From positions 1,426,001 through 1,490,000 of the forward strand of contig JAVJRG010000005.1 of NCBI GenBank assembly GCA_040218535.1: DNA of 64,000 bases, read 5' to 3'. A model generated the notes under the pieces. It saw only the letters and a list, made by a program, of their open reading frames with translations, searched no databases and was not told the DNA's origin. Every line of letters starts with the position of its first letter. Position 1 is the stretch's first letter. Position numbers and translations under genes: made by a program. Shown here one piece after another: positions 10,219 through 54,044 of this stretch. The stretch comes from Lacipirellulaceae bacterium. Lineage in GTDB: Bacteria > Planctomycetota > Planctomycetia > Pirellulales > Lacipirellulaceae.

Positions 10219-10250
10219 ATTCGATTCTTTCTTTCGTTGGTATCTGGTTT

Positions 10251-10284
10251 AGCCGCAGATGAACGCTGATCAACGCAGATTTTT
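10251..10284. repeat. GCCGCAGAT...CGCAGAT intergenic repeat, single arm
   Basis: AGCCGCAGATGAACGCTGAT followed by CAACGCAGATTTTT. The same pattern recurs as an inverted pair at 11978-12013 and 12069-12100. It lies upstream of the MoxR gene. Confidence 0.7.
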
Positions 10285-10356
10285 CCTGTTAGTGATTCGA
10301 GCGTTAGTTGTTCGTTTTTCTTTCTGTAGTATTGGATCACTGCTGCTACTGCGTGC

Positions 10357-11976: not shown

Positions 11977-11977
11977 T

Positions 11978-12100
11978 CTGGCCGCAGATAAACACGGATG
12001 AACGCAGATATTCTTTTCTTCAACCATTGAGAAAGGACTCTTGCGAGCAACAGCTATGATATACGAGCATCTGCGTCTATCAGCATTCATCTGCGGCTAT
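11978..12100. repeat. Inverted-repeat element with GCCGCAGAT arms
   Basis: Left arm 11978-12013 (GGCCGCAGATAAACACGGAT then GAACGCAGAT) and right arm 12069-12100 (ATCTGCGTCTATCAGCATTC then ATCTGCGGC) are imperfect reverse complements. The element fills the gap between the DUF1501 and EF-hand genes and has probably caused an artificial N-terminal extension of the EF-hand frame. Confidence 0.75.
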
Positions 12101-12118
12101 TCTAGTTGGGCAATTCGG

Positions 12119-13474: not shown

Positions 13475-13484
13475 GCTTGCGCGA

Positions 13485-16286: not shown

Positions 16287-16302
16287 GCTTTCTTGAACTT
16301 CT

Positions 16303-33000: not shown

Positions 33001-33135
33001 TTCCTACCGCTAATTCTCAGCGGTGGAGGGTTTTGGCCGCCTCTGGCGATCACGATCGCCTGCGGCGTAGGCGGGGCAACGCTAATGGCCCTGTACCTGG
33101 TCCCCTCTCTGACACGTCTATTACGTGTGAAGTAA
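30049..33135 (+). CDS. RND-family efflux permease (HAE1/AcrB type)
   Basis: 1028 residues. An N-terminal membrane helix (LLLLVGVIVVAGLSSFVLMP) is followed by the first periplasmic loop (PGADAERVESLVTIRIENQL), helices 2-6 with the proton-relay segment GLLIDNAIVIVEDVRARI, then a second periplasmic loop and helices 8-12 ending LTRLLRVK. The relay has DN where many pumps have DD. It uses the proton gradient to expel small amphiphilic molecules. Its position 236 bp before the aromatic-PKS cluster and same orientation make it a candidate exporter of that product; substrate otherwise unknown. Confidence 0.93.
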   Translation: MIAHFLFKNPRILLLLVGVIVVAGLSSFVLMPRLEDPVLGKRVAVISTVFPGADAERVESLVTIRIENQLQGIAEIKEIRSNSRTGIANLVIKLSDEVDDVEEVWSQVRNKLADVEADLPTGCFSPDFEIFPLKAFAAIVAVKWRDASDPQLSILRKLSSQLWQQISNLPGTESVEEFGNPGEEYLIEVEPTVLVATQLSTAAIAGQVSANIASQPAGYARGDDSQLLLDLKPSDSNIDKLRDSTIRFGPRGQSVRLREIATIEKRTITPKTDVALVDGEPGIVLGAFFDDRLRVDHWANSLRELVAKFQDDYQAELDVEIIFSQQEFIDVRLNTLLQNLFLGAAGVTCVVLLLMGWRSMIVVGVTLPLSSLMVLAGMRTMGIPMHQMSITGLIIALGLLIDNAIVIVEDVRARIFGGETTQDAIRESIRHLAMPLFGSTLTTTLAFMPIAILPGPPGEFVGTIAISVILAISSSFLLAMTVVPALLGLMRIRTDQRGTFTYGITNRLIQSVYVWSLKFVFRVPILGVVLACALPCLGYWVAGQLPNQFFPPSDRKQIQIEVELPAREPIAKTLATVETLRTSLVKNPALERLHWFIGRSAPTFYYNVVPSRRGTPFYAQAIAELAAGQKATAAVRALQSELDANHPECRAIVRQLEQGPPIDAPIELRLVGPDLQKLQELGNQLRLLLSQTPHVIHTRSDSEETIPKLIVDVDAEQSARTGNNETQIASHLYTTLEGAPAGKLLDGDEELPVRVRMASESTTGLDRLAALQLGSGRPTRPSGPPGTPPAASVAAPLAAIADFELGSDVAALVRIDGERTNEIKAYLTAGVLPAVVLEDFQQRLAESGFRLPPGYRLDIGGEDAERASAVQRLVANAGVLFTLMILTLVVSFRSFRCALIIIVVGGLTIGLGPLSLWLFGFPFGFMAIVGTMGLVGLAINDSIVVLAAIRNNEAARRGEVLALTNVVVSCTRHIIATTITTIVGFLPLILSGGGFWPPLAITIACGVGGATLMALYLVPSLTRLLRVK

Positions 33136-33371: not shown

Positions 33372-35057
33372 ATGCCGCCAGCCGCTACACAAAGGGTAGG
33401 CACCAGCAGCAACGCCTTGATCGATGGAAGTCCACTCAGCATCAACCAGGTTGCTGCCATCGGACAAGGACATCGCCAGTTGCAACTCAGCGAGGACGCT
33501 GCGCTGCGCGAGCGGATCACCGCGGCGGCGGAACTCGTCGACCATGCCGTTGAAAAAGGGTGGCCCGTCTACGGAGTGACGACCGGCTTCGGTGGCATGT
33601 CAAACCTAGCCGTGCCTTGCGATCAAGCGGCTGCTTCCCAGCAGAACCTCTTGTCGTTTCTGGCAACAGGAGCTGGCTCACCAATCGACCCTCGTCATGT
33701 GCGGGCAGCGATGGCCTTGCGTGCCAACGTGCTCATGCAAGGTTATTCCGGCGTGCGTTTGGAAATCATCCAGCGACTTATTACCTACTTGAACCGAGGC
33801 GCAACGCCGGTCGTTCGCGAGTTGGGTTCGATCGGAGCAAGCGGGGACCTTGTGCCGCTTTCGGTAATTGCTCGAGCGATCACCGGTCATAGTAACTTCG
33901 TCAAAGTGCAAATCGATGGCCGCACTCTCGACGGACCGGCTGCACTTCGCGAACTCGATCTGGAGCCTATCGAGTTACGCCCCAAAGAAGGCCTTGCGCT
34001 AGTCAACGGGACGTCATTTAGTTCCGCAATCGCTGCGAATTGTGTCGCTGAAGCACGGCGACTCATGGCATTGGCCTTCGGCGCGCAGGCAATCATGCTT
34101 CGTGCCTTGAACGTGCAGGACGAGCCGTTTGCCGCCTTTGTTCACCAGCGTAAGCCACACCAAGGACAGGTCTGGTCTGCGAAAATCATGCAGCGGCTGC
34201 TCAACGAAGGGCGGGAATCGCTCAATGGCAGCGCCCATAAGGAGCTACCGTCCGAGCATATTCAAGATCGCTATTCGCTGCGCTGCTTGCCGCAGTATTT
34301 CGGGCCAATCGTCGAAGGCTTGGCTCGGGTGATCAACGTTGTTGAGACTGAAATGAATGCCGTCTCTGACAACCCGCTCGTTGATGCGGAGAATGGTCGT
34401 TTCTATCAGAGTGGGAATTTTCTTGGTCAGTACGTTGGTGTCGCGATGGACGACCTCCGCCGTCACCTCGGGCTGATGGCCAAACATCTCGACGTGCAGA
34501 TCGCCTCGCTGGTCACCCCGGCATTCAGCAACGGCCTGCCTTCTTCGCTGCGCGGCAACGACGCGCTACCCTACAACATGGGCCTCAAGGGGCTACAGAT
34601 CACCGGCAATTCGATCATGCCAATGCTCACATACCTTGGCAATCCATTGGTCGAACACTATCCGACACACGCAGAGCAATTCAACCAAAACATCAACGGG
34701 CTGAGTTGGGGCGCTGCCAATTTCGCCTGGAGGTCGGTCGAGCTGTTCCAGCATTATCTGGCAGTGGCCTTGTTGTTTTCTGTGCAGGCTATTGATTTGC
34801 GTGCCAAAGCAACACTCGATCACTTCGACGGTCGAGCATTACTGGGCAGCTTGCTCGCACCACTCTACACGAAAGTCTGTGAAGCCGTTGGCAGCGAATC
34901 TGGTCAGGAACGCCCGTTCCTGTTCGACGACGCGGACCAATGGCTTGAACAACATCTGGCAACGCTTCACGAGAACATTGCTGCACATGGGAGTGTCGTA
35001 AGTGCCGTTCAGCCGGTACTCGACTCGTTCGACGAATCTCCGCTCTGTCGAGGGTGA
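33372..35057 (+). CDS. MIO-type aromatic amino-acid ammonia-lyase, phenylalanine-lyase-like
   Basis: 561 residues. The MIO cofactor triad Ala-Ser-Gly lies at 156-158 in GSIGASGDLVPLS; the catalytic lid Tyr is Tyr67 in YGVTTGFGG. Long segments resemble cyanobacterial phenylalanine ammonia-lyase (HIQDRYSLRCLPQYFGPIVEG, THAEQFNQNINGLSWG, NMGLKGLQITGNSIMP). The selectivity pair after QQNLL is Phe96-Leu97, as in phenylalanine lyases, not the Ser-His of histidine lyases or the His of tyrosine lyases. It would deaminate L-phenylalanine to trans-cinnamate; an aminomutase is possible. It is the first gene of the PKS cluster and its stop overlaps the alternative GTG start of the ligase, so cinnamate as starter is the natural inference. 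Confidence 0.88.
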   Translation: MPPAATQRVGTSSNALIDGSPLSINQVAAIGQGHRQLQLSEDAALRERITAAAELVDHAVEKGWPVYGVTTGFGGMSNLAVPCDQAAASQQNLLSFLATGAGSPIDPRHVRAAMALRANVLMQGYSGVRLEIIQRLITYLNRGATPVVRELGSIGASGDLVPLSVIARAITGHSNFVKVQIDGRTLDGPAALRELDLEPIELRPKEGLALVNGTSFSSAIAANCVAEARRLMALAFGAQAIMLRALNVQDEPFAAFVHQRKPHQGQVWSAKIMQRLLNEGRESLNGSAHKELPSEHIQDRYSLRCLPQYFGPIVEGLARVINVVETEMNAVSDNPLVDAENGRFYQSGNFLGQYVGVAMDDLRRHLGLMAKHLDVQIASLVTPAFSNGLPSSLRGNDALPYNMGLKGLQITGNSIMPMLTYLGNPLVEHYPTHAEQFNQNINGLSWGAANFAWRSVELFQHYLAVALLFSVQAIDLRAKATLDHFDGRALLGSLLAPLYTKVCEAVGSESGQERPFLFDDADQWLEQHLATLHENIAAHGSVVSAVQPVLDSFDESPLCRG

Positions 35058-35095
35058 GCAAGGCGACCTTACGATCACCGGGTCGACGAGAGTTT

Positions 35096-37114
35096 ATGAA
35101 TATTTGCGAACACTTGACCGCCGCGGCAAAACGCTTGCCCGACAAAGAGGCGATTGTCTTTGAAGGCCAGTCGTTCTCTTTCGCGCAGCTCGAACAACTT
35201 TCGGCTCAAGCAGCAATGCGACTCAGCGAGGCAGGTGTGGGGCGTGGCGATCGGGTGGCAATCATGTTGCCCAATGTGCCCGCGTTTGTCGTGTGGTACT
35301 ACGCCTCGCTCCGACTGGGGGCGATTACCGTGTCGATCAGCACTCGCCTCACCGAGAAAGAAGTCGCCTTCGTGGTTTCCGATTGTGAAGCAACAGCATT
35401 CGTCGCTGACACGGAAACTATTCAAAAGCAAACGGAGTACCTCCCCGACTGCGTCGCCAAGACATTCGGCGTTTCTGACTGGGCCGACCAATGTAACGGA
35501 GAAAAGCTGAAGGATTCACCCGACGGAGAAATCTCAGATTGGATCGATGCAGATCCCGACGAAGCCGCACTGATTCTATACACATCAGGCACAACGGGTT
35601 TCGCCAAAGGCGCGACGCTATCGCACAACAATGTGCGTTCCAACGTGCTGGAATTTAACCGTCTCTGCGACATGCAGCCCGACGATCGTATTTTGATCGC
35701 GGTGCCGCTGTTTCATTGCTTTGGTCAGAATGCGTTGTTGAACTCAGCGTTTAACGTTGGTGCAACGCTCGTGTTGCAGCGTGGCTTCGATATCAACGAG
35801 TCGAAACGCTTAATCAAGCAGCAGAAGGTGACGCAACTCTACGGCGTCCCGACGATGTTCCAGCTCTTCAACGAGAGTTGCACGCCCGCAGACCTTGCGT
35901 CGGTGCGTTACTGCTTCTCGGCGGCTGCCAAGCTTCCAATCCAGGTCAGTCGTCACTGGCTAGAGAAGTTCGACCAGCCAATCTATGAAGGCTACGGCCT
36001 CACAGAAACCTCGCCGTTTGCCAGTTACAACCACCAAGAGGACTACGTGATGGGCTCGATTGGCACGCCTATCGATCAAGTCGAGATGAAGATCGTCGAT
36101 TCCGAGACCGGCGAGACCTGCCAGCCAGGAGAGTTGGGTGAGATCGCCATCCGCGGACCGAACGTGATGCTTGGTTACTGGAATCGGCCTGATGAAACCG
36201 CTAGCGCGATTCGCGATGGTTGGTTTCACTCGGGTGACATCGGTCGCCAGGACGAGCAGGGTTTTTTCTATATCGTTGATCGCGTCAAAGACATGATCGC
36301 GGTCGGTGGGTTGAAGGTCTACCCGGCTGAGGTAGAGCGAATCCTGCTCGACCACGCGACGGTCTCGCAAGCCGCTGTGGTAGGGTTACCGGATGACGTT
36401 TTCGGCGAGCGCGTGGTGGCGTTCGTGGTATTGACGCCTCAAACAGCAACCAACGGTGCTGACCTGCATGAGCAACTGCAACAGCATTGCCGCGACAACT
36501 TGGCGAGTTACAAAGTGCCAAGGCAGTTTGTGCCGACCGAGGAATTACCCCGCAACCCCTCGGGTAAAGTTCTCAAAACAAAGCTGCGTGAGGTCGACCT
36601 GAGCAGCGAAATCTCGACCGCTGCAACTTCCACCGACGAGTTGGCAGCGCACCTAGCCGCTTCCTCTCCCGCGACGCGCGAGCCAACGCTCTGGCCTGAG
36701 TTGAAAAAGAGTTATGCGACCAATCGCCCGCAAGTCGCCACCGAGTTTATACAAAACATGCTTCAGGTGCTCAGTGGTGAGGACGACCGCTTGGAACCAG
36801 ACGCGCGGTTCTTAGAGGCAGGGCTCGACTCGCTGATGATCGTCGAAATGAGTAGCCAGATCCAAGCAGAAGTCGGCCCGACTTGCGAAATCCCGGCGAC
36901 ACTACTGTTCGACTACCCACGCGTTTGCGACTTAGCGGAGTTCCTGGTCCAGACTTTTACAGCGGACGAGCAGCCGTCATCACTCCCCACTAATGACTTG
37001 CCAGAGACCGCGTCAGCGGCCAGTCGCGAACTCGCCACCTTGCGACAAGAGGTGGCTGCAATGTCCGAGGACGAAGCACTCCAAGAGCTCATGAGAGAGC
37101 TTGAAAGTAGCTGA
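35096..37114 (+). CDS. Aryl/acyl-AMP ligase fused to an acyl carrier protein
   Basis: 672 residues from the ATG at 35096 (a GAGAG lies 5-9 bp upstream); a GTG at 35054 overlaps the preceding stop and would add 14 residues. The adenylation domain carries LYTSGTTGFAKGATLSHNN (P-loop), YEGYGLTETSPF, the GWFHSGDIG and FFYIVDRVKDMIAVGGLKVYP hinge motifs and the NPSGKVLKTKLRE catalytic Lys. After a linker, an ACP follows with the phosphopantetheine Ser579 in EAGLDSLM. It most likely activates cinnamate as the adenylate and loads it onto its own carrier for hand-over to the PKS. It is 58 bp before the PKS. Substrate is inferred from the neighbouring ammonia-lyase. Confidence 0.9.
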   Translation: MNICEHLTAAAKRLPDKEAIVFEGQSFSFAQLEQLSAQAAMRLSEAGVGRGDRVAIMLPNVPAFVVWYYASLRLGAITVSISTRLTEKEVAFVVSDCEATAFVADTETIQKQTEYLPDCVAKTFGVSDWADQCNGEKLKDSPDGEISDWIDADPDEAALILYTSGTTGFAKGATLSHNNVRSNVLEFNRLCDMQPDDRILIAVPLFHCFGQNALLNSAFNVGATLVLQRGFDINESKRLIKQQKVTQLYGVPTMFQLFNESCTPADLASVRYCFSAAAKLPIQVSRHWLEKFDQPIYEGYGLTETSPFASYNHQEDYVMGSIGTPIDQVEMKIVDSETGETCQPGELGEIAIRGPNVMLGYWNRPDETASAIRDGWFHSGDIGRQDEQGFFYIVDRVKDMIAVGGLKVYPAEVERILLDHATVSQAAVVGLPDDVFGERVVAFVVLTPQTATNGADLHEQLQQHCRDNLASYKVPRQFVPTEELPRNPSGKVLKTKLREVDLSSEISTAATSTDELAAHLAASSPATREPTLWPELKKSYATNRPQVATEFIQNMLQVLSGEDDRLEPDARFLEAGLDSLMIVEMSSQIQAEVGPTCEIPATLLFDYPRVCDLAEFLVQTFTADEQPSSLPTNDLPETASAASRELATLRQEVAAMSEDEALQELMRELESS

Positions 37115-37172
37115 GTGCGTACTATTTGCACTGATCAAGAATTTAGTCTGCTAAGACACCTTTCATCACGAC

Positions 37173-40100
37173 ATGACCGAGCAACCGAACAATCAACTTT
37201 CGCCGAATAAGCAAGCACTGCTGAAGATCCGTGAACTCAAGCAGCTACTTGCGGAAGCTCAGCAAGGTGCTGCTGAGCCGATCGCGATTGTCTCCATGGC
37301 TTGCCGCTTTCCGCGTCGCTCGCGCACGCCCGAGGAATTTTGGAAATGTCTGCTGGAGCGGACCGACGAGGTCAGCGAGATTCCCGAAGATCGCTGGGAC
37401 TTAGACGCCTTCTACGATGAAGATCCGGAAGTCCCAGGCAAGATGTACGCTCGCCAAGGAGTGTTTCTCGACAACCTCGATCTGATGGATCCCGAGTTCT
37501 TTGGCATCTCGCCGCGCGAGGCGACGTGGGTCGATCCACAACAGCGACTGCTGATGGAAGTTGGCTGGGAAGCACTCGAAAGGGCCGGTTGGCCAGCCGA
37601 AAAGATCGGCGAACAGACAGGTGTGTTCGTTGGTTGGATGCACAACGACTACCAGAACGAAGCCAGCGATTCATTCCTGAATCTGAACCCGTACATTGCC
37701 ACGGGTGCCGCCGGTAGTTTCCTGTGTGGACGGCTTGCTTACTATCTTGGCTTACAAGGCCCCAGCCTTGCGGTCGACACGGCATGCTCCTCATCGCTCG
37801 TAGCACTGCACTTGGCATGTCAAAGTCTGCAGCGCGGCGACTGCGAGCGTGCGTTGGTCGGCGGCGTAAACGCCATCGTCTCACCGACGACAAATATTCT
37901 AACGTGCAAGCTTAAAGCCCTTTCACCAAATGGGCACTCGCGCGCGTTCGACGCGGCTGCCGATGGTTACCTTCGTGGTGAAGGTTGTGGTGTTGTGACC
38001 TTGCGGAAACTGTCTGATGCCCAGCGCGCTGGCGATCCCATCTTGGGGATAATTCGCGCGACGGCTGTTGGTCACAATGGCACCAGCAGCGGACTCACGG
38101 CACCTAATCCCAAGGCGCAAGAGAAAGTCATTCGCCAGGCGCTCGAACGAGCAGGAATCACCGCGTCGGACGTCGCGTATCTCGAAGCACATGGCACGGG
38201 GACCGAACTGGGCGATCCGATCGAAATCCAGGCCGCGGCCGCCGCACTCGCGCAGGCACGCGACGCGGATAATCCACTGCTGGTGGGCTCGGTAAAAACG
38301 AACATCGGGCACCTTGAGGCAGCGGCGGGAATGGCTGGGCTGATCAAAGTGTTGCTGGCCATGGAGCATCAGCAGATCCCGGCTCAGTTGAATTTTGACG
38401 AACCGAATCCGCACATCCCCTGGGACAAACTGGCCGTCAAGGTGGTCACCGAAGCAACCGACTGGCCGAGCAATGGTGAGAAGCGCATTGCCAACGTCAG
38501 CGCCTTCGGCATGAGCGGCACGAATGCGCACGCCGTCATTGAAGCACCTTCTAAGAATGAAATTCAGGTGCCCGTGACGGCGGAAATAAAGCAATCCAGC
38601 GAACCCAAGTTGGTTGTTTTGAGTGCGAAGAGTGAGGAGGCACTTCAGGAATTCGCCGAAGGATTCGAGCAACATCTTTCCAGCAGCGAACAAGATCTGG
38701 CAGACATTGCCTATACGACCTGCGTGGGTCGCAGCCATATGGACCAGCGTGCGGCGCTTGTCGTACGTGACCGAGAGCAGGCGATCAATGAATTGAAGAC
38801 CCTTGCCCGGCTCGGCAAATCCAATTCGCTTTTCGTTGGCAATGGTCGACGTGCCCCTAAAGTCGCTTGGCAGTTCACCGGTCAAGGTTCGCAATACGTC
38901 GGGATGGCTCGCGGACTTTATTCGTCGCAAGAGGTCTTTCGAGAAGCCATCGACCACTGCGATCAATTGCTGCAGCAGTGGCGTCAGGCGTCGCTCACCG
39001 AGGTGATGTTCGAGCACCCTGAACTGATCAACCATACAAGCTGGACCCAACCGGCAATTTTCGCCGTCCAAATGGGGCTTGCCCGACTGCTAGAAAGCTG
39101 TGGTTTGAGGCCCGCTGCTGTCCTCGGCCACAGTGTCGGTCAGTACGCAGCAGCCTGCGTCGCGGGCATCATGACCTGGGACGAAGGGTTACATCTCATC
39201 AGCGAGCGCGGTCGGCTGATCGGCGAATTGCCCGCGGGTGGTCGCATGCTGGCCGTGTTCGCGCCGCCTGCTGAAGTCGAAAAGGGCATTGAGAGCGTTG
39301 CTGAAGTCTCATTGGCCGCACTCAATGGCACCCATACCGTTATCAGCGGAACCGAAGCGGCGGTCGCCGAGGTCGAAAAGGAGTTCGCCGCACGCAACAT
39401 CAAAACGAAGGCGCTGACGACCTCACATGCGTTCCACTCCGCACTGATGGACCCCGCCCTCGCACCCTTCCAGGCGGTCGCTGATCAGGTGGAGTTTCAG
39501 CCGGGCAGCCTGCCGCTGGTCTGCAATGTCACAGGTCAAGCGCTGGCGGCGGATGCGGTGCTTGACGGTGCTTATTGGGCGAAACACATTCGCGAAGCGG
39601 TTCGCTACGCCGACGGGATCGAAGCCGTCCAACAACTTGGTTGCGACGTGGTGTTAGAGCTCGGCCCGCAGGCGGTGCTGACGCGCATGGCCGCCGCGAA
39701 TTGGAAACAGCCCGCCACTGGACTGATTAGTTGCTTGCAAAGGGGCGGCGAAGATGCGAATTCGTTGCTGCAAGCAATCGGACAGTTGTATGTTCACGGC
39801 GCGACACCCGATTTCGATGCGGTTTACGCGCGCAAGGATGTAAGACGTGTCGTCCTGCCAACCTACCCCTTCCAAAGACGTCGTTTCTGGGGGCCGGACA
39901 AGCCACGTGCGTTCCATGCCGAGTTCCACACGGCCCACCCGCTCTTGGGCAGCAAGGTATCGTTGGCCGGTATCAAAGATGAAACACGCTACGAGAGTTT
40001 CATCGAACCCGATAGCCCGCCTTGGTTGCCCGATCATGAAGTGATGGGCCACACGGTTGTGCCAGGTGCCGCGTATGTCGAAATGGCATTGGCGGCGGCG

Positions 40101-43100
40101 GGGCATTCTTCGGTGAGTGAACTGGCTTTCGAGCAGCCGCTCAGGCCTGCCTCTCGTACGGCATTGCAAACCATTGTGCGACAGAATGATGACGGTCAGA
40201 AGACGCTCGAGGTTTTTTCCACGCCCGCCGGTGAAAACAATTGGACGCGGAACTGCTCCTGCAAGTTCGACGAGACGCCAGGCGAACGCCCCGAAGCGAT
40301 TGATCGCAGCAAGCTCGAAGCCGCCTGCCCTGAAACGGCCTCGCCCGAGGATTTCTATCGCAAAATGCAAGAGTTGGGGCTCAACTATGGGGCGAAGTTC
40401 CAGACGATCGCGTCGATTCACTATTCAAAGGAAGCCGTCCTCACGCATTTGAAGACCGTGGGCGACATCCGCGGATTCACGATCCCCCCGACGCTTCTCG
40501 ACGGAGCACTACATTCCCTGGCGGTGGGCCTACTTCGCGACGACGACGAGAACCTCTACCTGCCGGTCGGCATTGGCAAGTGCACCGTGTTCCAAGCGAT
40601 CGAAAGCGAAGCTTGGTGTTACGCGAAATGGAAACAGTCAGAGGGAAAACTCCGTACCGCCGACATCACGCTGCTAACCGAAGCGGGCCAAGTTGTCGCC
40701 GAAATCGAATCACTCCAGGTGCAACAGATCAACCGTGCAGCACTGCGTCAGCTCAGCGGTGCTGGTCCCGAGCGGCTGCTCTACAACTTCGCTTGGCAGA
40801 GTTTCCGCCTACCGCCAGCCACAACGAAACAAACCAAGTGGTTGGTCGTCTCGACGGACCAGTCTGATGATTCGCTGGCCAGCCAAGTGGCGTCGAGGCT
40901 CAAGTCTCAAGACCACTCAGTGGTTCAACTTTCCCTGACGAGCAACACCGATTTCGAGCAGTTGTCTGATTCGCACTTTGCGATGTGCCGAGAGGAACTC
41001 GCCAACTGGGAACAGCTATTCGACGTGTCAGCCGCACCCGACGGTATCGCCTGGATCTTCGACTGCCATCAGCAGGCCAGTAATCAAACGGACGGTGGCG
41101 GCGGCGGCGAACTTCCCGAGACGACGAAGCTTCAATGCACGGGCCTGTTGAACCTGATCGCAACGCTGCAGAAGCGTAACTTACGAAAGCTCGAATGCGG
41201 ACTTCAGCTTGTCACCAGCGATGCGATCGCCGCCAAGGAAGCCGCGACAGTCGATGCTCATCAGTCACAATACTGGGGCTTGGGTCGCGTGCTGGGCGCT
41301 GAACATCCCGAAATGCGTTGCCGTGTCATTGATCTTGCCTCCGAAGAGTCAGCGACGACGGAGACGGTCGGTGCCGTCGTTGATATTCTGCTGACCGAAA
41401 CCCACGACAGCCAGTTAGCCATTCGCGCTGGGCAGTTCACGGTACCGCGACTGAATCAGGCGGCCGTTTCCCGCAGGTCGGGACCACCCCTGCAAGTTCA
41501 TCCAGACGCCAGCTATCTGATCACCGGCGGCTTGGGAATGCTGGGCCGGCAGGCTGCCAAGTGGTTGGCGGAGAAGGGAGCCAAGCAGGTCGTGCTCGTT
41601 TCCCGACGCGAGCCCGACGCGCCAACCCAGGAATTCCTCAACACGATCGAGACGCTCGGCTGCCAAGTCGTTGTCCACACTGCAAGCCTCAGCTCAGCGG
41701 ACGACGTCAAGACGCTCTTCGACCGCTTCGGCAACGACCTCAACCCACTAGTCGGCGTCATCCATGCCGCGGGTGTGCTCGACGACGGGCTGATTGGCGA
41801 TCAAACCTGGGAACGGTTCGAAAAGGTGCTCGCACCAAAGATCATTGGTGCAACCCTTTTGCACGAATTCACGAAGTCATTACCGCTCGACTTCTTTATC
41901 CTGTATTCTTCCGCGGCTTCAGTACTGGGCTCGCCGGGGCAAAGCAACTACGCGACCGCCAATGCCTATCTCGATGGCTTGGCTTGGCAGCGGCGCGCAC
42001 TTGGTTTGCCGGCCCTCAGCATTAATTGGGGACCGTGGACCGAAGGAATGGCCGACGACGAGCGAATTCTCAAACGCTTGTCGTTGCAGGGCATCACCCC
42101 GCTGGCCGTCAGCGAAGCGCATGATGCGATGGAAAAGATGTTGGCTGCCGATCTTGTGCAGACGACCGTGATGGATGTCGATTGGCAGCGAATGCGGATG
42201 GGCATGGGTGGCGAGTCTCCCGCTTTGCTCGCGGAGTTGGTCTCCACCAAACAGAAATCGCAGGCAGGCGAATCGGAGTTAGTCGTCAAGCTGAAACGAC
42301 TCCGCGGTGATGCCCAAAGAAAACTGTTGGTCACGACGATCCAAAACACCTTGCAAGGGATTCTCTCTACCCCGGACCTTCCGGAAACGGATCGTCCCCT
42401 GATCGAGATGGGTCTCGATTCCTTAATGGCGGTCGAGTTCGGCACGGAACTGCAATTGCTTCTCGGCGACCAAATGGGCATCGGACCCACGATGCTGTTC
42501 GACCATCCGACGATTGACGCGATCTCTGATCATGTCTTGGAATTGATCGTCAGCGATGCGGAGGAGACTTCTAACGAATCAAGCGAGCCGGCCAAGCCGC
42601 TCGCTGAGACGGCGCGGGCCGAACGCGAAGATGTCGCGATCGTTGGTATGAGCTGCCGTTTCCCTGGGGCACGCGACCTCGACGAATTCTGGCAGAACTT
42701 ACTCAATCAGGTCGATTCGGTTCGTGAAATTCCGGATGACCGTTGGGACATCGATCGCTTCTACAGTGCCGACCGCGAGCCTGGCAAGATGTATACGCGC
42801 GAGGGCGGTTTCCTCGAAGACATCGCGGACTTCGACGCGGAGTTTTTCAATATCTCGGATCAAGAGGCTTGCTGGATCGATCCGCAACATCGCATGCTGC
42901 TCGAAAATAGTTACCGGGCTCTCGAAGATGCCGGCATTTCGCCGCACCCGTTGACCGACGCAAACGTCGGTGTGTTCATGGGCATCATGGGCCAAGACTA
43001 CGCTTTTCTGCCAAGCCTTGACGACGAAGAAGTGATCCGCGAGTTCCGCGGTGCCGGCCTCTCACACAGTGCCGGCGTGGGACGCATCAGCTACCTCTTT

Positions 43101-45191
43101 GGCTTCGAAGGTCCAAGTGTCGCCGTCGATACGGCAAGCAGCAGTTCCCTGGTCGCACTCTTCCAGGCAGTACGAAGTCTGCAGGACGGCAACTGCAATA
43201 TGGCACTCGCCGGGGGCGTCAACGCGATTCTGGCACCGGTCAATTCGCTGCTCATGTCGAAGGCCGGATTGTTGTCTCCCGATGGTCGTTGTCGTTCGTT
43301 TTCGGCCAGTGCTAACGGCTTCGGTCGGGGCGAGGGCTGCGGGGTTGTCGTGCTCAAACGATTGAGCGACGCCCAACGCGACGGCGATCGCGTCATGGCA
43401 GTCGTGCGGGGTGGCGCGGTCGTCCACAACGGATTCACCGGAGGCATCACGTCACCCAGCAGCAAATCACAAGCACGCGTCATCGCCGAAGCACTCAAGG
43501 ACGCCCGCCTCGCACCCTCGCAAGTCCAGTACTTGGAGGCGCACGGCACAGGCACCGAGTTGGGCGACCCGATGGAGTTGGCTGCCGCGTCGTCGGTCTA
43601 CGGCAAGGGGCGCAAGCCCGACGAACCATTGCTGGTAGGCTCGGTCAAAGCGAACATCAGCCATCTCGAAGCAGCCGGCGGGGTGTCGGGCTTGATCAAA
43701 ACCGTACTTGCTTTGCATCACGGTATTCTCCCACCGCAAATGCACTTCGACGAGCCAAGCTCGCATATCCCCTGGAGCCGTCTGCCTGTGAAGATGGTCA
43801 GCGAACAGACGACGTGGCCGGAAACGGAGCAACGCGTCGCCGGGGTGACCGCTCTGGGACTGGTTGGGACGAACGCTCATGTGATTCTCAGTTCGTCCGC
43901 GAATATTGCCAACGAGGGTGAAGCTGATGAAACGATGCTCGCCTCACCAAGACCGACCCAACTCCTCGTATTGAGCGCCCGCAGCGAGATCGCACTACAG
44001 GAGCTTGTGGTAAAGCACTTCGATTACCTAAGCGATCATCCCGAAGTCGATCTGGCAGACTACTGTCATACCCTGGCGACCGGACGACGCCACCACGAAT
44101 ACCGCACTGCACTGACCGCGTCGTCGCGGGAAGAGATGTTAGAGCGACTCGCCGAGGGAATCGACCAAGAACCATCCGGGCCGTCGTTTCATCGCAACGG
44201 TAGTGCCTCCCAAAACGGCGCACACATGAACGGGGCGACCGGCGGCTCCGAACCACGACAATCGAACGCTGCGATGAGCCATTCGACATCAGCTCCAAAA
44301 ATCTCCTGGCTGTTCGGCGACTTCAGCACCACGACCTTCGAGAGAGGACGCGAACTGTATCGCGCCGAACCCGTCTTCCGCGAGTTGATCGCCAGCTTCG
44401 ACCAGCGTTTGGCAGAACACTCAGCGGCGACCAACCAATCGCACGCTCCTCTTGAGGAATGGTTCACGAGCGAAACCAATGCGAACCAGTACAGCGAAGT
44501 TCACACTTTCGCCGTGCAAGCAGGCCTGGCGAAAGTCTGGGAATCGTGGGCCATCGAGCCTGAGGCTGTGGCTGGCTTCGGAGTGGGTCAGTATATAGCC
44601 GCGTGCGTAGCGGGCGGATTGTGCTTCCTCGATGCGCTGACGCTAGTGGTCCAGCGGCAGGAGATACTCACTCAGAAACAGTCGCTCTCCCAAGCCGACC
44701 AAAGCGATGAGCTGAGAGCCGCACTCGACGAATTTGAGACTTTCGCCGATACCATCAACTACTATCCGCCCAACCTGCCGCTGATTTGCAGCTCCAGTGC
44801 CTCCATCGTCCCCGTGCATCGTTCACTTGGCGGCAGCTACTGGCGGCAACACTGCTTGGACGTTCCTCAAATAGAGGAAAGCATCGAAACACTTATCCAG
44901 CAGGGAGCCGATTACATTCTCGAGCTCGGAACGGTAGATGCTGCGAAACCAAACGACAACACAGCGACATGGTTGCCCTCTCTGGACGACAACACCGATG
45001 CGACGACCTCTATGCTAGCTGCCCTCGGGCAGTTGTACTTAGCCGGAGCACTGCCCGACTTCAAACAGTTCAACGGCCACTGGCAATTTGAAAAACTGAG
45101 CTTGCCGACTTATCCCTTCCAGAAGAAACGCTACTGGATCACGGAGATCTCGGATCACGTCGAGCGACCGGCAGAACCTATTCAGAGTTAG
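37173..45191 (+). CDS. Type I polyketide synthase, KS-AT-DH-KR-ACP plus inactive KS-AT tail
   Basis: 2672 residues. Domains: KS about 34-458 with Cys205 (DTACSSS), and His motifs EAHGTGT and NIGHLEAA; AT about 566-860 with Ser654 (GHSVG) and HAFHS, the malonyl-type motif; DH about 922-1200 with His955 (HEVMGHTVVP) and Asp1110; KR with GGLGMLG near 1450, Ser1580, Tyr1593 and an LDD motif (B-type); ACP with Ser1750 (GLDSLM). No enoylreductase is seen. A second KS (about 1820-2240) has Ser1989 in place of Cys (DTASSSS) though both histidines remain (2124, 2164). A following AT-like region has Gly2470 for the active Ser (GFGVG), lacks HAFHS and is shortened. No ACP or thioesterase follows. It would give unsaturated chains on an acyl-ACP starter, probably iteratively. 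There is one active module. Confidence 0.9.
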   Translation: MTEQPNNQLSPNKQALLKIRELKQLLAEAQQGAAEPIAIVSMACRFPRRSRTPEEFWKCLLERTDEVSEIPEDRWDLDAFYDEDPEVPGKMYARQGVFLDNLDLMDPEFFGISPREATWVDPQQRLLMEVGWEALERAGWPAEKIGEQTGVFVGWMHNDYQNEASDSFLNLNPYIATGAAGSFLCGRLAYYLGLQGPSLAVDTACSSSLVALHLACQSLQRGDCERALVGGVNAIVSPTTNILTCKLKALSPNGHSRAFDAAADGYLRGEGCGVVTLRKLSDAQRAGDPILGIIRATAVGHNGTSSGLTAPNPKAQEKVIRQALERAGITASDVAYLEAHGTGTELGDPIEIQAAAAALAQARDADNPLLVGSVKTNIGHLEAAAGMAGLIKVLLAMEHQQIPAQLNFDEPNPHIPWDKLAVKVVTEATDWPSNGEKRIANVSAFGMSGTNAHAVIEAPSKNEIQVPVTAEIKQSSEPKLVVLSAKSEEALQEFAEGFEQHLSSSEQDLADIAYTTCVGRSHMDQRAALVVRDREQAINELKTLARLGKSNSLFVGNGRRAPKVAWQFTGQGSQYVGMARGLYSSQEVFREAIDHCDQLLQQWRQASLTEVMFEHPELINHTSWTQPAIFAVQMGLARLLESCGLRPAAVLGHSVGQYAAACVAGIMTWDEGLHLISERGRLIGELPAGGRMLAVFAPPAEVEKGIESVAEVSLAALNGTHTVISGTEAAVAEVEKEFAARNIKTKALTTSHAFHSALMDPALAPFQAVADQVEFQPGSLPLVCNVTGQALAADAVLDGAYWAKHIREAVRYADGIEAVQQLGCDVVLELGPQAVLTRMAAANWKQPATGLISCLQRGGEDANSLLQAIGQLYVHGATPDFDAVYARKDVRRVVLPTYPFQRRRFWGPDKPRAFHAEFHTAHPLLGSKVSLAGIKDETRYESFIEPDSPPWLPDHEVMGHTVVPGAAYVEMALAAAGHSSVSELAFEQPLRPASRTALQTIVRQNDDGQKTLEVFSTPAGENNWTRNCSCKFDETPGERPEAIDRSKLEAACPETASPEDFYRKMQELGLNYGAKFQTIASIHYSKEAVLTHLKTVGDIRGFTIPPTLLDGALHSLAVGLLRDDDENLYLPVGIGKCTVFQAIESEAWCYAKWKQSEGKLRTADITLLTEAGQVVAEIESLQVQQINRAALRQLSGAGPERLLYNFAWQSFRLPPATTKQTKWLVVSTDQSDDSLASQVASRLKSQDHSVVQLSLTSNTDFEQLSDSHFAMCREELANWEQLFDVSAAPDGIAWIFDCHQQASNQTDGGGGGELPETTKLQCTGLLNLIATLQKRNLRKLECGLQLVTSDAIAAKEAATVDAHQSQYWGLGRVLGAEHPEMRCRVIDLASEESATTETVGAVVDILLTETHDSQLAIRAGQFTVPRLNQAAVSRRSGPPLQVHPDASYLITGGLGMLGRQAAKWLAEKGAKQVVLVSRREPDAPTQEFLNTIETLGCQVVVHTASLSSADDVKTLFDRFGNDLNPLVGVIHAAGVLDDGLIGDQTWERFEKVLAPKIIGATLLHEFTKSLPLDFFILYSSAASVLGSPGQSNYATANAYLDGLAWQRRALGLPALSINWGPWTEGMADDERILKRLSLQGITPLAVSEAHDAMEKMLAADLVQTTVMDVDWQRMRMGMGGESPALLAELVSTKQKSQAGESELVVKLKRLRGDAQRKLLVTTIQNTLQGILSTPDLPETDRPLIEMGLDSLMAVEFGTELQLLLGDQMGIGPTMLFDHPTIDAISDHVLELIVSDAEETSNESSEPAKPLAETARAEREDVAIVGMSCRFPGARDLDEFWQNLLNQVDSVREIPDDRWDIDRFYSADREPGKMYTREGGFLEDIADFDAEFFNISDQEACWIDPQHRMLLENSYRALEDAGISPHPLTDANVGVFMGIMGQDYAFLPSLDDEEVIREFRGAGLSHSAGVGRISYLFGFEGPSVAVDTASSSSLVALFQAVRSLQDGNCNMALAGGVNAILAPVNSLLMSKAGLLSPDGRCRSFSASANGFGRGEGCGVVVLKRLSDAQRDGDRVMAVVRGGAVVHNGFTGGITSPSSKSQARVIAEALKDARLAPSQVQYLEAHGTGTELGDPMELAAASSVYGKGRKPDEPLLVGSVKANISHLEAAGGVSGLIKTVLALHHGILPPQMHFDEPSSHIPWSRLPVKMVSEQTTWPETEQRVAGVTALGLVGTNAHVILSSSANIANEGEADETMLASPRPTQLLVLSARSEIALQELVVKHFDYLSDHPEVDLADYCHTLATGRRHHEYRTALTASSREEMLERLAEGIDQEPSGPSFHRNGSASQNGAHMNGATGGSEPRQSNAAMSHSTSAPKISWLFGDFSTTTFERGRELYRAEPVFRELIASFDQRLAEHSAATNQSHAPLEEWFTSETNANQYSEVHTFAVQAGLAKVWESWAIEPEAVAGFGVGQYIAACVAGGLCFLDALTLVVQRQEILTQKQSLSQADQSDELRAALDEFETFADTINYYPPNLPLICSSSASIVPVHRSLGGSYWRQHCLDVPQIEESIETLIQQGADYILELGTVDAAKPNDNTATWLPSLDDNTDATTSMLAALGQLYLAGALPDFKQFNGHWQFEKLSLPTYPFQKKRYWITEISDHVERPAEPIQS

Positions 45192-45220
45192 TGTCATTCA
45201 AAATTGACGACGGAAGCAAG

Positions 45221-46843
45221 ATGAAAGAGCATAAACCATACGATGTGGTAATCCTCGGCGGCGGGCTGGCGGGTCTGACGTTGACCAAACAGTTGCTGAT
45301 GAAGCGCCCCGAAACGCGGATCGCCGTGATCGAAAAGCGGACCTTTCCCGTGTCAGAGGCAACGCACAAAGTGGGCGAGTCGTCGGTCGAAATCGGCGCC
45401 CATTATTTTGCCGAGGAGCTGCAGCTCAAAAAACATCTGACCGATCACCAGTTGCCAAAGTTCGGCCTTCGCTTTTTCTTCAAAGAAGCCTATCAGTCGC
45501 TTGCCGAAGGAACCGAAGTTGGGGGAAGCCACTTTTTCTCGGCACCCAGCTATCAGATTGATCGCGGACGCTTCGAAAACTACTTGGCGGAGACCGTCAC
45601 GGAAATGGGGGCCACGATCCTCAGCGGTTCAATGCTGCGAGAAGTCCACCTGGAATCAGCCGACGGAAAATCCTCACCGACAGACCATCGCGTTGTCGTT
45701 ACGCGCGACGGCGACGAGCAAACCTTGCACGCCCGTTGGGTGGTCGACGCGAGCGGTCGAGCGAGTTTCTTGAAACGCAAACTGAATCTTTCCGAGGATC
45801 TCAACCACGACATTAACGCCGTTTGGTTCCGAATCGACGAGACCATCCAGATCGACCAGTGGTGTGACGACCAAAATTGGCAGGTGCTCACCGGTAAAGT
45901 AGCCCGCCGATGGCTGAGTACGAATCACTTGATGGGCGAGGGCTACTGGGTCTGGCTGATTCCGCTAGCCAGTGGCTCGACGAGCATCGGCATCGTGGCT
46001 GATCCGCGTATCCACGCCTTACGCGACATCAACAGTTTTGAAAAAGCCCTAGCTTGGCTCGACAAACACGAGCCCGAGTGCGCCGAGAGCATTCGCCCAC
46101 ACCGCGAGAAAATGCAAGACTTCCTGGCCATCAAAAAAATGTCGCGTGGTGCACGCCAGGTGTTTTCCGCCGATCGGTGGGGCCTTGTGGGCGAAGCGGC
46201 TGCGTTTCTCGATCCGTTCTACTCGCCTGGCAGCGACTTCATTGCCATTGGCAACGCGATGGTCGGTAAACTGATCGATGAAGACCTCGCGGGACGCCCC
46301 ATCGAGCACCTAGCCCCCACACTGCAAAGTGTTTTCCTCACGCTCTTCCAAAACAACCTGCTCACCTACCGCGATCAGTATCCGCTGTTCGGCAACCCGC
46401 GCATCATGGCGCTGAAGTTCGTCTGGGACTATGCCGTCTACTGGGGCTTTCCGGCCCTGTTGTACTTCAACGGCAAGCTGACCGACGTTGGGTTCATTCA
46501 GTCGCTCGCCAAGGGGATCGAAGAAATCCGCGAGATGAACTTGAAGATGCAGCAGTTTTTCCGCGGCTGGTACGAGGCCGACCCGACGGTACGGGCCGAG
46601 TCCGCGTTTGTCGATCAGAGCCAAATTGAATTGATGACCCGCCTCAACGCCGAGCTGCGCGAGAAGCTCGACGATGCCGCATTGAAAGCACGCTTCGCTG
46701 ACAACGTCAATTTGATCCGCGACCTAATGTACGAGATCACCGACCGCATCCAACGCGTGCAACCAGCCGTCCAAACGGATATCCCCGAACGCACGGCAAC
46801 GGAGAATCGCCTAGAAAACGTGTTCGAAGTTTTGAACATTTAA
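45221..46843 (+). CDS. Flavin-dependent halogenase-like protein 1
   Basis: 540 residues from the ATG at 45221 (GGAAG 4 bp upstream); a GTG at 45191 overlaps the PKS stop and adds 10 residues. FAD-binding GGGLAG lies at 13-18, and KVGESSVE is the GES-type motif of halogenases. The FDH signature WxWxIP is at 243-248 (WVWLIP) and FxxPxxSxG at 329-337 (FLDPFYSPG). Lys80 in LPKFG sits about where the catalytic Lys of halogenases is expected. These motifs separate FDHs from ordinary FAD monooxygenases, so halogenation of an aromatic or polyene substrate is possible; an oxidase or dehydrogenase role is not excluded. A paralogue lies next door. No flavin reductase gene is seen. Confidence 0.85.
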   Translation: MKEHKPYDVVILGGGLAGLTLTKQLLMKRPETRIAVIEKRTFPVSEATHKVGESSVEIGAHYFAEELQLKKHLTDHQLPKFGLRFFFKEAYQSLAEGTEVGGSHFFSAPSYQIDRGRFENYLAETVTEMGATILSGSMLREVHLESADGKSSPTDHRVVVTRDGDEQTLHARWVVDASGRASFLKRKLNLSEDLNHDINAVWFRIDETIQIDQWCDDQNWQVLTGKVARRWLSTNHLMGEGYWVWLIPLASGSTSIGIVADPRIHALRDINSFEKALAWLDKHEPECAESIRPHREKMQDFLAIKKMSRGARQVFSADRWGLVGEAAAFLDPFYSPGSDFIAIGNAMVGKLIDEDLAGRPIEHLAPTLQSVFLTLFQNNLLTYRDQYPLFGNPRIMALKFVWDYAVYWGFPALLYFNGKLTDVGFIQSLAKGIEEIREMNLKMQQFFRGWYEADPTVRAESAFVDQSQIELMTRLNAELREKLDDAALKARFADNVNLIRDLMYEITDRIQRVQPAVQTDIPERTATENRLENVFEVLNI

Positions 46844-46865
46844 GAGCAGTTTAGAAAACAGTTTC

Positions 46866-46931
46866 GTAACCCGAAGCGTGAGCGAGGGGCCGTGCTGTCA
46901 GGGTTTTTCCCTCGCTTACGCTTCGGGTTAC
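46866..46931. repeat. Long intergenic hairpin with GTAACCCGAAGCG arms
   Basis: Arms 46866-46888 and 46909-46931 pair over 23 bp with one mismatch (G-T on RNA) around a 20-base loop ending GGGTTTTT. It sits between the two halogenase-like genes and could terminate or stabilise the upstream transcript. The GTAACCCGAAGCG pattern looks like a dispersed repeat, but only this copy occurs in the window. Confidence 0.85.
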
Positions 46932-47003
46932 GATTAATGAAACCACTACCGGACGCGGCCTTCAGATTTCAAACAGCAACCAAGTGAACCTACGAGACCG
47001 ACA

Positions 47004-48629
47004 ATGGAACAACAAACCGACCTCACAATTCTCGGTGGTGGCTTGGCAGGGCTCTCGCTAGCGCTGCAAGTGCGGCAAGAAGCTCCGCAGGCCAACATCA
47101 CGGTACTCGAGAAACGCAAACACCCCGTTCCCGAAGCGGCCCACAAGGTGGGTGAATCCACGGTCGAAGTCGCCGCCCACTATTTCGGACGCGTACTCGG
47201 CCTGCGCGATCATATTCTCGACCAGCAATTACCCAAGCTCGGCTTACGGTTCTTCTTTCCCTCGGGCGACAATTCACGAATCGAGAACCGCTTGGAACTC
47301 GGCGGTAAGCGTTACGCGCCGTGTCCGAGCTACCAACTCGATCGCGGACGCTTCGAAAACTTCCTCGCCGATCGCTGTTTGTCACAAGGGATTCGCTTCC
47401 TTGACCGTGCTGATATTCAATCGATCGAGATCAATCGCCGCGGCACGCACCAAGTGACCTTCGAGACCGAGGGCAACACTGAGTCCGTTGATGCACGTTG
47501 GGTCGTCGATGCCAGCGGTCGCCGCGCTTTCCTCAAACGGCAACTCAAACTCGAAAAGTCGTCGCCGCATCGGGCAAGCTCCGCCTGGTTTCGTTTCGCA
47601 AAGCACATCAAGATCGACGATTGGTCTCAGGACCCCGTCTGGAGCGAAGGGCACGAGGGTAAGACGGGGCGTTGGTACAGCACGAATCATCTGATGGGCC
47701 AAGGTTACTGGGTCTGGATGATTCCGCTGGCGTCGGGCTCAACGAGCATGGGCATCGTTGCCGCCGAGGAATTCCACTCGCTCTCGAACTTCAACTCGAT
47801 GGATAAAGCGCTCGCCTGGCTCGAACAGCACGAGCCGCAATGCGCTGCCGCGGTCAGAGAAAACCTGGACGAACTGCAAGACTTCCGTGCGATCAAGCAT
47901 TACGCCACCGAATGCAAACAAGTGTTTTCTGGTCGTCGTTGGGGCATCACCGGCGAGGCCGGCTTTTTCCACGATCCGTTCTACTCGCCCGGCAGCGATT
48001 TCATCGCGTTCTCCAACACGTTCCTAACCGATCTGATTCGCCGGGACCTCGCTGGCAAGGAGTTTCGCATTCGCGCGTTCTCGTACGACCGTATCTTCAA
48101 ACGGTTCTACTACGGCACGAAAACCGCCTACCAAGACCAGTACTGCCTGTTCGGCAACCCAACGGTCATGCCCGTGAAAATCCTGTGGGACTATCTGATC
48201 TACTGGTCAATCACCGGCTTCATTTTCATGCAAGGCCGGATCTGCCATCAGACGATGTACCTGCGCAACATGTCGAAGCTGTCGAGACTCGGCAAGCTGA
48301 ACCACTTTATGCAAGACTTCTTCCGCCAATGGCATCAGGCAACCGCCGACGACCAGTCGACCGGCGCGATCAACATCTCCGAGATGCCGATCATCCGCCA
48401 AATGAACACTCGCCTGCTCGAAGAAATGAGCAACCCTCAATTCTTCAGCCGCTTCAACACCAACCTGGAGCAACTAGAAACACTCGCCTGCGAAATCGTC
48501 GCCCAATCCGGCCAAAACATCAGTTGCCCCTTCCGCCGCCACTCCAAAGCCGCGGTCCTCGACGATACTTTCCAGCCGGTGTTCAACCCAAAGCCGAACG
48601 TCTCGTCACCGGCGGCGGTTGGGGTTTAG
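47004..48629 (+). CDS. Flavin-dependent halogenase-like protein 2
   Basis: 541 residues, a paralogue of the preceding gene along its full length. FAD motif GGGLAG at 11-16, GES-type motif KVGESTVE near 48-55, Lys78 in LPKLG, WVWMIP at 236-241 and FHDPFYSPG at 322-330. The conserved segment order and shared C-terminal features ([14 protein letters not shown]) support a tandem duplication followed by divergence. Function as for protein 1: probable halogenase-family flavoenzyme acting on the cluster product. It is separated from protein 1 by 160 bp containing the hairpin repeat. The last clear member of the biosynthetic cluster. Confidence 0.85.
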
Positions 48630-49360
48630 GTTGGAGTTGCTCCTGACTATTCGACGAAGAAGACAAGGCCGAAGAGCTGTGCCTGATTCTGAGTCTGGGT
48701 TCTATCGCGAGTTTCTAAGGCCCAGAAGCAACGATTTATTTCTCGCCGGCAAAGCCTCCATTCGCAAAGTTTGAAATTACTTCCTCGGGACCGGATTCGA
48801 CGGCCAGCAACTGTTCGATCTCTACGCGGCCCCCGGCAAAAGAACCATCTGGCGAACGATCCTACTCACGCTACCAGTTCAGCCGCGATCTGACTTGTGC
48901 ACGCCGCGGACTTGGAAATTGTCCTCTGGCGGCTCGTTGTCAGGCGCCCTTTGTTTCCTCGTCGTTGCAACAATAACCGTAGAAAAACAGCCCACTTCCC
49001 AGGACGACCCGCCGGAAGTTTCTTTAAGCAAAGCGGACAAGCAATCATGCGTCAGCTTGAGTCCCATTAGAAAGCGTGAATCTGCAAACTATCGAGGTGT
49101 GTGGCCCACAGACGACGTATAGTTGATTCCCTAGCCTGAGCAAGCCAGCGATGGTACCAAGCGCCCGACCTTCGGCTTTGCTAGGGCTCGCTGCTAGAGC
49201 CAGTGCCACCCGCCGAACCGTGAATGAATTACAGCAAACTATCGTGTACGCAGTTCGCAGAAAACTTGCGATTACTCTCTAATCTGCCTACAATCTCACA
49301 ATTACTGGTCAAGCACCTGCAATGGCGACTCGCGCAGTATTCGCACGGAGAAATGAATGT
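48630..49360. other. Gene-poor spacer after the PKS cluster
   Basis: About 730 bp with short open frames on both strands (for example 48895-49122 plus and 48879-49067 minus) but no recognisable family. No insertion-sequence ends or tRNA were seen. It probably marks the 3' boundary of the biosynthetic cluster. Confidence 0.45.
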
Positions 49361-50176: not shown

Positions 50177-50177
50177 A

Positions 50178-53178: not shown

Positions 53179-53308
53179 GGGAGCATAACTTGTCAGGAAT
53201 TGTTGTGGCATGCGTGGATTTCGAATCGTTTTATTGGTACACCAGTTTTGGGGCGTAAGTGTTACGCTCTATGATTCATCTGAGTCGAAAATGCACCCAA
53301 GTTCAAGC

Positions 53309-53992: not shown

Positions 53993-54044
53993 CTGGCCAT
54001 TTGTATGGTTCGATGAGTTAGTTGCGGGTGGTAGAATTCACTGC

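Follow-up and report, generated by a model that had tools for sequence, protein, structure and literature searches.

Type II aryl polyene, xanthomonadin and flexirubin systems (hereafter APE systems) extend their chains with malonyl units by means of a ketosynthase (KS) that works with a non-condensing KS-like partner, and some of them include halogenase-family flavoproteins. Polyenes are also made by iterative type I polyketide synthases (PKSs), among them the enediyne PKSs and the polyunsaturated fatty acid (PUFA) synthases, which carry a chain-length factor (CLF; KS-CLF in PfaC) and whose domain order differs from the one described below. In the type II pair ApeO-ApeC, the CLF ApeC is reported to be about half a KS, with a single thiolase fold (PMC8358021). 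The celluxanthenes of Clostridium thermocellum (cex cluster) are phenyl-capped polyenes that have been attributed to an iterative type I PKS, so type I aryl polyenes are not a new idea (PMC12144888). For planctomycetes, a survey of PKSs describes type III enzymes (PMC10896814). Here, we analyzed a locus of a Lacipirellulaceae bacterium (Planctomycetota) within a stretch of 64,000 nucleotides, hereafter the window, which spans positions 1426001-1490000 of contig 5 (JAVJRG010000005.1) of a 5.36 Mb assembly (GCA_040218535.1). It holds a block of seven genes with a type I PKS that ends in a second, catalytically altered KS (KS2). We regard it as an even call whether this block serves the biosynthesis and export of a cinnamoyl-primed aryl polyene by an iterative type I PKS in which KS2 is a CLF-like part.

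An original prediction, made from the sequence alone, had reported five of these genes as a group on one strand: an ammonia-lyase, a ligase fused to an acyl carrier protein (ACP), a PKS and two halogenase-like flavoproteins. Pfam matches and the positions of the open reading frames (ORFs) agree with it. The five ORFs lie at 33372-48629 on the + strand, exactly where they had been placed, and their junctions are, in order, an overlap of 4, a gap of 58, an overlap of 1 and a gap of 160 bases. The PKS (2672 aa; 37173-45191, + strand) reads KS1-AT1-DH-KR-ACP-KS2-AT2 in Pfam and motifs, with AT for acyltransferase, DH for dehydratase and KR for ketoreductase. The first five domains, all on the + strand, carry the motifs of a working module: DTACSSS, HGTGT and KTNIGH in KS1 (37278-38540), GHSVG and SHAFH in AT1 (38868-39803), the active-site H and D in DH (39936-40757), GGLGMLG, YATAN and LDD in KR (41508-42044), and GLDSL in ACP (42336-42536). 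We take the HAFH motif of AT1 to be of the malonyl type and the LDD motif of KR to be diagnostic as well. No enoylreductase (ER) family was found in the Pfam scan of the PKS; a dehydrogenase C-terminal family, PF16912, matched inside KS2 at 21.3 bits, under its cut-off of 34.9. The same scan revealed no second ACP and no thioesterase domain, and the protein ends after AT2. The PKS has a single active KS-AT-DH-KR-ACP module, and its motifs support classification as a reducing type I PKS without ER. The module would iterate and build a polyene. The prediction had this module and the lack of an ER right, and had overlooked the second KS-AT at the C-terminus.

By its motifs, alignment and trees, KS2 (42627-43892, + strand) is a pseudo-ketosynthase. 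Its active-site Cys is replaced by Ser (DTASSSS) in the window, and Ser stands at this position in 15/15 KS2 sequences (12 full, 3 partial); both active-site His residues are kept in all rows with data. AT2 (44274-45140, + strand) aligns as a remnant in which GHSVG has become GFGVG and SHAFHS has become SQADQS. Gly occupies the serine position in all 14 sequences with data. In the pairwise alignment with AT1, a gap of 61 residues falls between the two active-site motifs, presumably at the location of the AT small subdomain, and a similar jump appears against CurL. As read from these residues, KS2 would be unable to form an acyl-cysteine and AT2 would lack what it takes to load malonate, which argues against KS2-AT2 being a second extension module. 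Pfam by itself gives two KS and two AT stretches, as in an ordinary two-module type I PKS that would be primed by a phenylpropanoid and make one or two extensions but no polyene. We find this highly improbable, given the Cys missing from 15/15 KS2 and the Ser missing from 14/14 AT2, the one ACP of the PKS, and the merely short dienoate that one non-iterative extension would yield.

One might also see in KS2-AT2 the relic of a lost extension module, retained as a structural element for the dimerization of the megasynthase. AT2 is indeed degenerate, and an ACP after KS2-AT2 is absent. Among 12 full-length PKSs, including that of the window, mean pairwise identity was 0.796 for KS1, 0.770 for KS2, 0.585 for AT1, 0.497 for DH and 0.352 for AT2. 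But KS2 is constrained like KS1. In three ortholog pairs, dN/dS was 0.031, 0.035 and 0.027 for KS2, 0.051, 0.039 and 0.037 for KS1, and 0.275, 0.209 and 0.086 for AT2, the third pair having saturated dS and no computable DH value; KS2 showed the lowest ratios among KS1, AT1, DH, KR, KS2 and AT2. Furthermore, identical substitutions are fixed in 14/14 KS2, including at active-site and gate positions. We compared them with 35 other KS domains, leaving out rows L080 and L086. The original residue is found in 35/35 of these for C1989S and G2163S, in 33/35 for D2044S and F2228L, and in 34/35 each for A2169G and A2172S. We take F2228 to be the gating Phe of KSs. With such constraint, KS2 is, as far as sequence evolution can tell, no decaying module, and a structural relic is unlikely.

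To place KS2 among other KSs, we built two trees, having removed L086 ahead of both. In a tree of 44 KSs (8 of the 14 available KS1, 8 of the 14 KS2 and 28 KSs from outside the block), KS1 and KS2 each form a clade with support 100/100, and the two clades are sisters at 98/97. The stem leading to KS2 is longer than that of KS1 (0.75 vs 0.55 changes per site). An earlier tree of 42 KSs, with all 14 KS1 and all 14 KS2, as well as L080 and near-copies used there only, grouped the domains in the same way, if less firmly (93/90), and its stems measured 0.98 for KS2 and 0.55 for KS1. Since the two clades are sisters, KS2 most likely arose by intragenic duplication of the PKS's own KS(-AT), followed by fast change and then by a freeze. 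In comparison with ApeC, KS2 is full-length and related by descent to KS1 of the same PKS. Somewhat short of even confidence, we suggest that KS2 is the first recognized type I CLF derived by duplication of the synthase's own KS within the same chain, with an origin independent of the type II CLFs. Our searches of open-licence papers turned up neither an account of this planctomycete block nor one of such a cis-encoded pseudo-KS or type I CLF.

As expected of a CLF, KS2 is a KS homologue without the catalytic Cys that is co-encoded with an active KS, and it may act as a chain-length factor. Loss of the Cys with retention of both His is also the pattern of KSQ domains, and KSQ-AT didomains were among the structure matches, alongside many ordinary KS-ATs. 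A KSQ-like KS2 would decarboxylate malonyl-ACP, either to provide acetyl-ACP for an acetate-primed chain or for proof-reading. However, the residue is Ser rather than Gln, AT2 appears dead, KS2 sits at the C-terminus and the block encodes an aryl primer pathway, all of which make a KSQ-like role very unlikely.

The lyase of this primer pathway (561 aa; 33372-35057, + strand) matches PF00221 at 456 bits. It is predicted to be a phenylalanine ammonia-lyase (PAL) of the 4-methylideneimidazole-5-one (MIO) type: it reads QQNLLSFLATGAG and has the MIO motif ASG (ASGDLVP). Its nearest solved structure, at 59% identity, is 9eq5, which is PbPAL of Planctomyces (Rubinisphaera) brasiliensis (PMC12535398). 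In vitro, PbPAL is reported to act exclusively as a PAL: it deaminates Phe, activity on Tyr and His was not significant, and 19/19 residues of a PAL active-site motif agree (PMC5651878). From this 19-residue motif, we checked the Phe-Leu (FL) selectivity pair in the window and its relatives. As the original prediction had stated, FL is present in the window lyase; it is also found in PbPAL and in 16/16 lyases of block loci. The scan has 64 lyases besides these, 27 of them with FL and 25 with YH. The window lyase and PbPAL are thus alike in the FL pair, in MIO chemistry and over 59% of their residues. The lyase scored 369.5 bits against the NCBIfam equivalog TIGR01226, below its cut-off of 519; we gave this little weight because the model, with 680 positions, presumably suits PALs of plant length. 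A search for the PbPAL locus in 170 genomes of family f5 gave a best match of 55%. The lyase is the sole PF00221 match in the whole genome assembly. A histidine ammonia-lyase (HAL) was considered on that account and rejected, given the FL pair and the closeness to PbPAL. A phenylalanine aminomutase was also rejected, since aminomutase models scored below the PAL and HAL models, and none of them reached its cut-off. The lyase is therefore likely to be specific for Phe, a specificity demonstrated for its 59% relative PbPAL only, and the predicted Phe/cinnamate priming gains support from this identity and the FL pair of the block lyases.

The next gene (35054-37114, + strand) encodes a 686-aa fusion of an AMP-forming acyl ligase with an ACP (AMP-binding 321 bits, PP-binding 39.6 bits). 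The fused ACP, with its GLDSL serine, matches PP-binding at about 36749-36946 on the + strand. An ACP with GLDSL or GMDSL is present in 15/15 block ligases of sufficient length. The lyase search of genome contigs, described below, retained 80 loci, 59 of which have at least 2.5 kb of sequence on both sides of the lyase; a homologous ligase lies within 3 kb in 47 of the 59 (12/12 block loci and 35/47 others). This proximity favors cinnamate or coumarate over fatty acids as the substrate of the ligase, and the ligase-ACP likely yields cinnamoyl-ACP.

How widespread is the block? The lyase search gave 130 relatives, and 80 loci were kept. Sixteen are planctomycete loci of block type, all with the ligase beside the lyase (truncated in L041, where the contig ends inside the ligase), and the PKS is visible in 13 of the 16. 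Lyase and ligase also occur together in two more planctomycete loci, L072 and L091, where the available sequence shows no such PKS. We then sought the first flavoprotein, FDH1, in 21 genome entries. It was found with E <1e-200 in 16 rows, of which those of G227 and G395 have identical coordinates, leaving 15 genomes; it was weak (E 1e-14 to 1e-17) or absent in G397, G406, G407 and G408, and had an E value of 2e-63 in G409. The second flavoprotein, FDH2, follows FDH1 in all 15 loci retrieved for these genomes, although in L143 the contig stops within it and in L140 it is spread over several frames. Upstream of FDH1 stands the PKS, or at least its end, in 14/14 loci where this can be seen. The common order in relatives is hence lyase, ligase/ACP, PKS, FDH1, FDH2. 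The block is neither a chance arrangement nor an assembly artefact, since it also occurs in other genomes, two of which are single-contig (G048, G069).

The prediction had missed two adjoining genes that travel with the block (28883-33135). These encode an RND periplasmic adaptor of the membrane fusion protein (MFP)/HlyD kind (28883-30052, + strand; HlyD_3 40.2 bits, RND_mfp 95.1 bits with a cut-off of 94.9) and an RND efflux permease of 1028 aa (30049-33135, + strand; ACR_tran 454 bits). RND and/or MFP genes adjoin the block in 14/14 loci with flanks, two of the 16 (L036 and L040) being too short. The RND homologues are 43-71% identical and lie upstream on the same strand, in divergent orientation, or downstream of FDH2. 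In L038, only the adaptor is present in the available sequence, and in L043 the RND gene is broken. Because contigs end, not all genomes show all seven genes. The only other neighbors in common are Ser/Thr kinases in five loci (at 31-39% identity, four of them scanned), an RlmA-type methyltransferase in two, and two further weak pairs at 24-29% identity. In the window, FDH2 is directly followed by a hypothetical protein overlapping a GT2-TPR protein (49322-51314); as these have no match in the loci of relatives, we rejected them as cluster members. Further on, GATase, DUF447 and GHMP-kinase-like genes stand consecutively at 53210-55675, a row that seems to us reminiscent of the methanopterin-linked C1 genes of Planctomycetes.

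A sample of 397 genomes from the class contained 8 with FDH1 at E <1e-100, including that of the window; they come from families f1, f5 and f103. None of the 17 other listed genomes of the window's own family has it. Family f103 belongs to the order of the window, and f5 to a different order of the same class. As far as contigs show, the block has a patchy distribution, with about 15 planctomycete genomes from two orders carrying it. This suggests horizontal transfer or frequent loss.

FDH1 (550 aa; 45191-46843, + strand) and its paralogue FDH2 (541 aa; 47004-48629, + strand) match Trp_halogenase at 50.5 and 57.6 bits, respectively, and are 44% identical in the window. Their nearest solved proteins, at 43-66 bits, include the flavin halogenases PltA (the best PDB match of FDH1) and CmlS, the "Halogenase" 3e1t and the flavoprotein 3nix. 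The motifs GGGLAGL, KVGES, LPKxGLRFFF, GYWVW[LIM]IPL and DPFYSPG are conserved in the covering block rows with few exceptions, such as LRFFL in FDH1 of L148. The halogenase signature, the GGGLAGL nucleotide site with WxWxIP, is present in both, and GYWVW[LIM]IPL occurs in every covering FDH1 and FDH2 row of the block. The K of LPKxGLRFFF, which may correspond to the known catalytic lysine of halogenases, aligns with a K of 3nix, 3e1t and 8zop, the alignment to PltA not being clean. These matches place FDH1 and FDH2 in the flavin halogenase superfamily, where motif conservation cannot tell halogenases from other flavin enzymes; halogenation is thus a putative function. Flavin-dependent halogenases act poorly on a phenyl ring without substituents. 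Hence, one enzyme may hydroxylate and the other halogenate, or the polyene may be the target.

Relatives of FDH1 were found in 24 of 140 myxococcal genomes, with 37-47% identity in the eight best rows. By raw count, 6 of 12 myxococcal FDH1-like loci have a KS-fold gene (L211, L212, L213, L216, L217 and L219). L216, L217 and L219 also have MMPL, LpxL-like and PlsC-like genes, and the first two an ammonia-lyase and a 4-coumarate ligase-like gene in addition, a gene set that resembles type II aryl polyene clusters. L212, L217 and L219 supplied the seeds of this neighbor search, and their matches are in part to themselves; independently of the seeds, a Pfam scan of L219 identified KS-fold proteins, an acyltransferase, MMPL and a lipid A acyltransferase. 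One KS-fold seed had first been labelled "CLF" and turned out to have the Cys motif, so we speak of KS-fold genes and not of KS/CLF pairs. The aryl-polyene link that the prediction had drawn finds support in the company that the flavoprotein homologues keep in some Myxococcota: KS-fold genes of type II along with MMPL and LpxL-like ones and, in two loci, lyase and ligase. In cyanobacteria, the loci L048-L050 (Nostoc, Atlanticothrix) combine an FL-type lyase, a ligase of about 690-706 aa and type I PKS genes, with two KSs read per locus and the Cys present in both. A general link between the lyase and type II KSs in cyanobacteria was rejected, the KS near the lyase in L076 being KASIII-like.

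Several points weigh against a CLF-like KS2 in a cinnamoyl-primed polyene pathway. Each KS of a bimodular PKS is known to form a homodimer. The AlphaFold monomer of KS2-AT2 is poor in KS2 (mean pLDDT 61.9) and good in AT2 only; in Foldseek, it matched KS-AT proteins at a TM of about 0.36-0.40, to be taken as a sanity check only. L042 has no PKS within 8 kb past the ligase, the block of G398 lies on two contigs (L043 with the lyase side, L151 with the PKS and both FDHs), G397 is without a strong FDH1 match, L140 has frameshifts, and L146 alone reads SQAFH in AT1. The top NCBIfam match of the ligase is a long-chain fatty acid CoA-ligase model (456.5 vs a cut-off of 476). Six of the 12 myxococcal FDH-like loci have no KS-fold gene, two of them on contigs of 5-7 kb. 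In L152 (G409:C236, 486-10338), an FDH1-like gene split over two frames stands beside a PKS with a DUF1702 gene; this PKS, KS-AT-KR-DH-4HBT, we take to be enediyne-type. In L060 (Symploca sp. SIO2E9, 9923-17114), a YH (Tyr-type) lyase and a ligase accompany an FDH1-like protein (41%), and no PKS was seen in the 21.6 kb of this locus, where these enzymes may serve a purpose other than polyketide synthesis.

Two more points concern catalysis by KS2 itself. Since it retains both active-site His, Ser-dependent transfer or decarboxylation is possible, and none of the genes shared among the neighborhoods is a release gene, which would leave KS2 as the main candidate for release. An off-loading KS2-AT2, whose Ser and two His would pass the finished polyene to water or an alcohol, would take the usual place of a thioesterase after the ACP, and a thioesterase is absent from the genes common to the neighborhoods. 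The Ser and the His are invariant in the KS2 sequences, as described above. Yet it is not obvious why an off-loading domain should have uniformly lost the gating Phe and the glycine of NIGH, and we know of no KS-fold esterase with a Ser nucleophile. We therefore hold off-loading to be rather unlikely.

Returning to the CLF-like reading, the observed gene content, domain order, active-site states and conservation would fit the following pathway. The lyase would convert phenylalanine to trans-cinnamate, and the ligase would adenylate it and load its own fused ACP. The cinnamoyl group would pass to KS1, and the one module KS1-AT1-DH-KR-ACP would iterate on malonyl units; for want of an ER, every round would lengthen the chain by one conjugated double bond. 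KS2, paired with KS1 or beside it, would be the CLF-like part that sets chain length or stability, with AT2 as scaffold. FDH1 and FDH2 would then act on the product by oxidation or halogenation, and its export would fall to the RND pump.

Such a pathway would share with type II APE systems the aryl primer enzymes, extension by malonyl units, the reducing domains (KR and DH) without ER, a KS accompanied by a non-condensing KS-like partner, and an exporter. In contrast to their discrete KS, CLF, KR, DH and ACP proteins, the block has one type I protein with a cis AT. It also has an RND pump and not an MMPL protein, and an acyltransferase of the LpxL/PlsC kind is absent from its seven genes. The PKS scored 693 bits against the PfaA model, well under the cut-off of 1010. 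An enediyne cluster was rejected for the window, no such marker being among its scanned ORFs. Going by the published description of the cluster and of CexF, the cex cluster is like the block in having a type I PKS, regarded there as iterative, and a ligase, with a separate ACP, and unlike it in its phenylacetate primer, two KASIII, an alpha/beta hydrolase and a phosphopantetheinyl transferase in the cluster; "ammonia" and "halogenase" are not mentioned in the main text of that paper (PMC12144888). The celluxanthenes thus take away the distinctiveness that the original prediction had seen in type I replacing type II enzymes, and its interpretation as a whole is partly supported.

If the CLF-like reading is true, a KS/CLF-like pair would have been reached by a second route, and a pseudo-KS with a covalent link to its active partner would set the chain length. 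Little is understood of the way in which iterative type I PKSs count their rounds. With one active module and a highly constrained pseudo-KS in a single chain, counting may be addressed by point mutation of KS2. The block would also suggest a native role for planctomycete PALs like those employed in biocatalysis. With its seven genes, it is a compact target for expression in a heterologous host, and it comes from a phylum of which few products are known.

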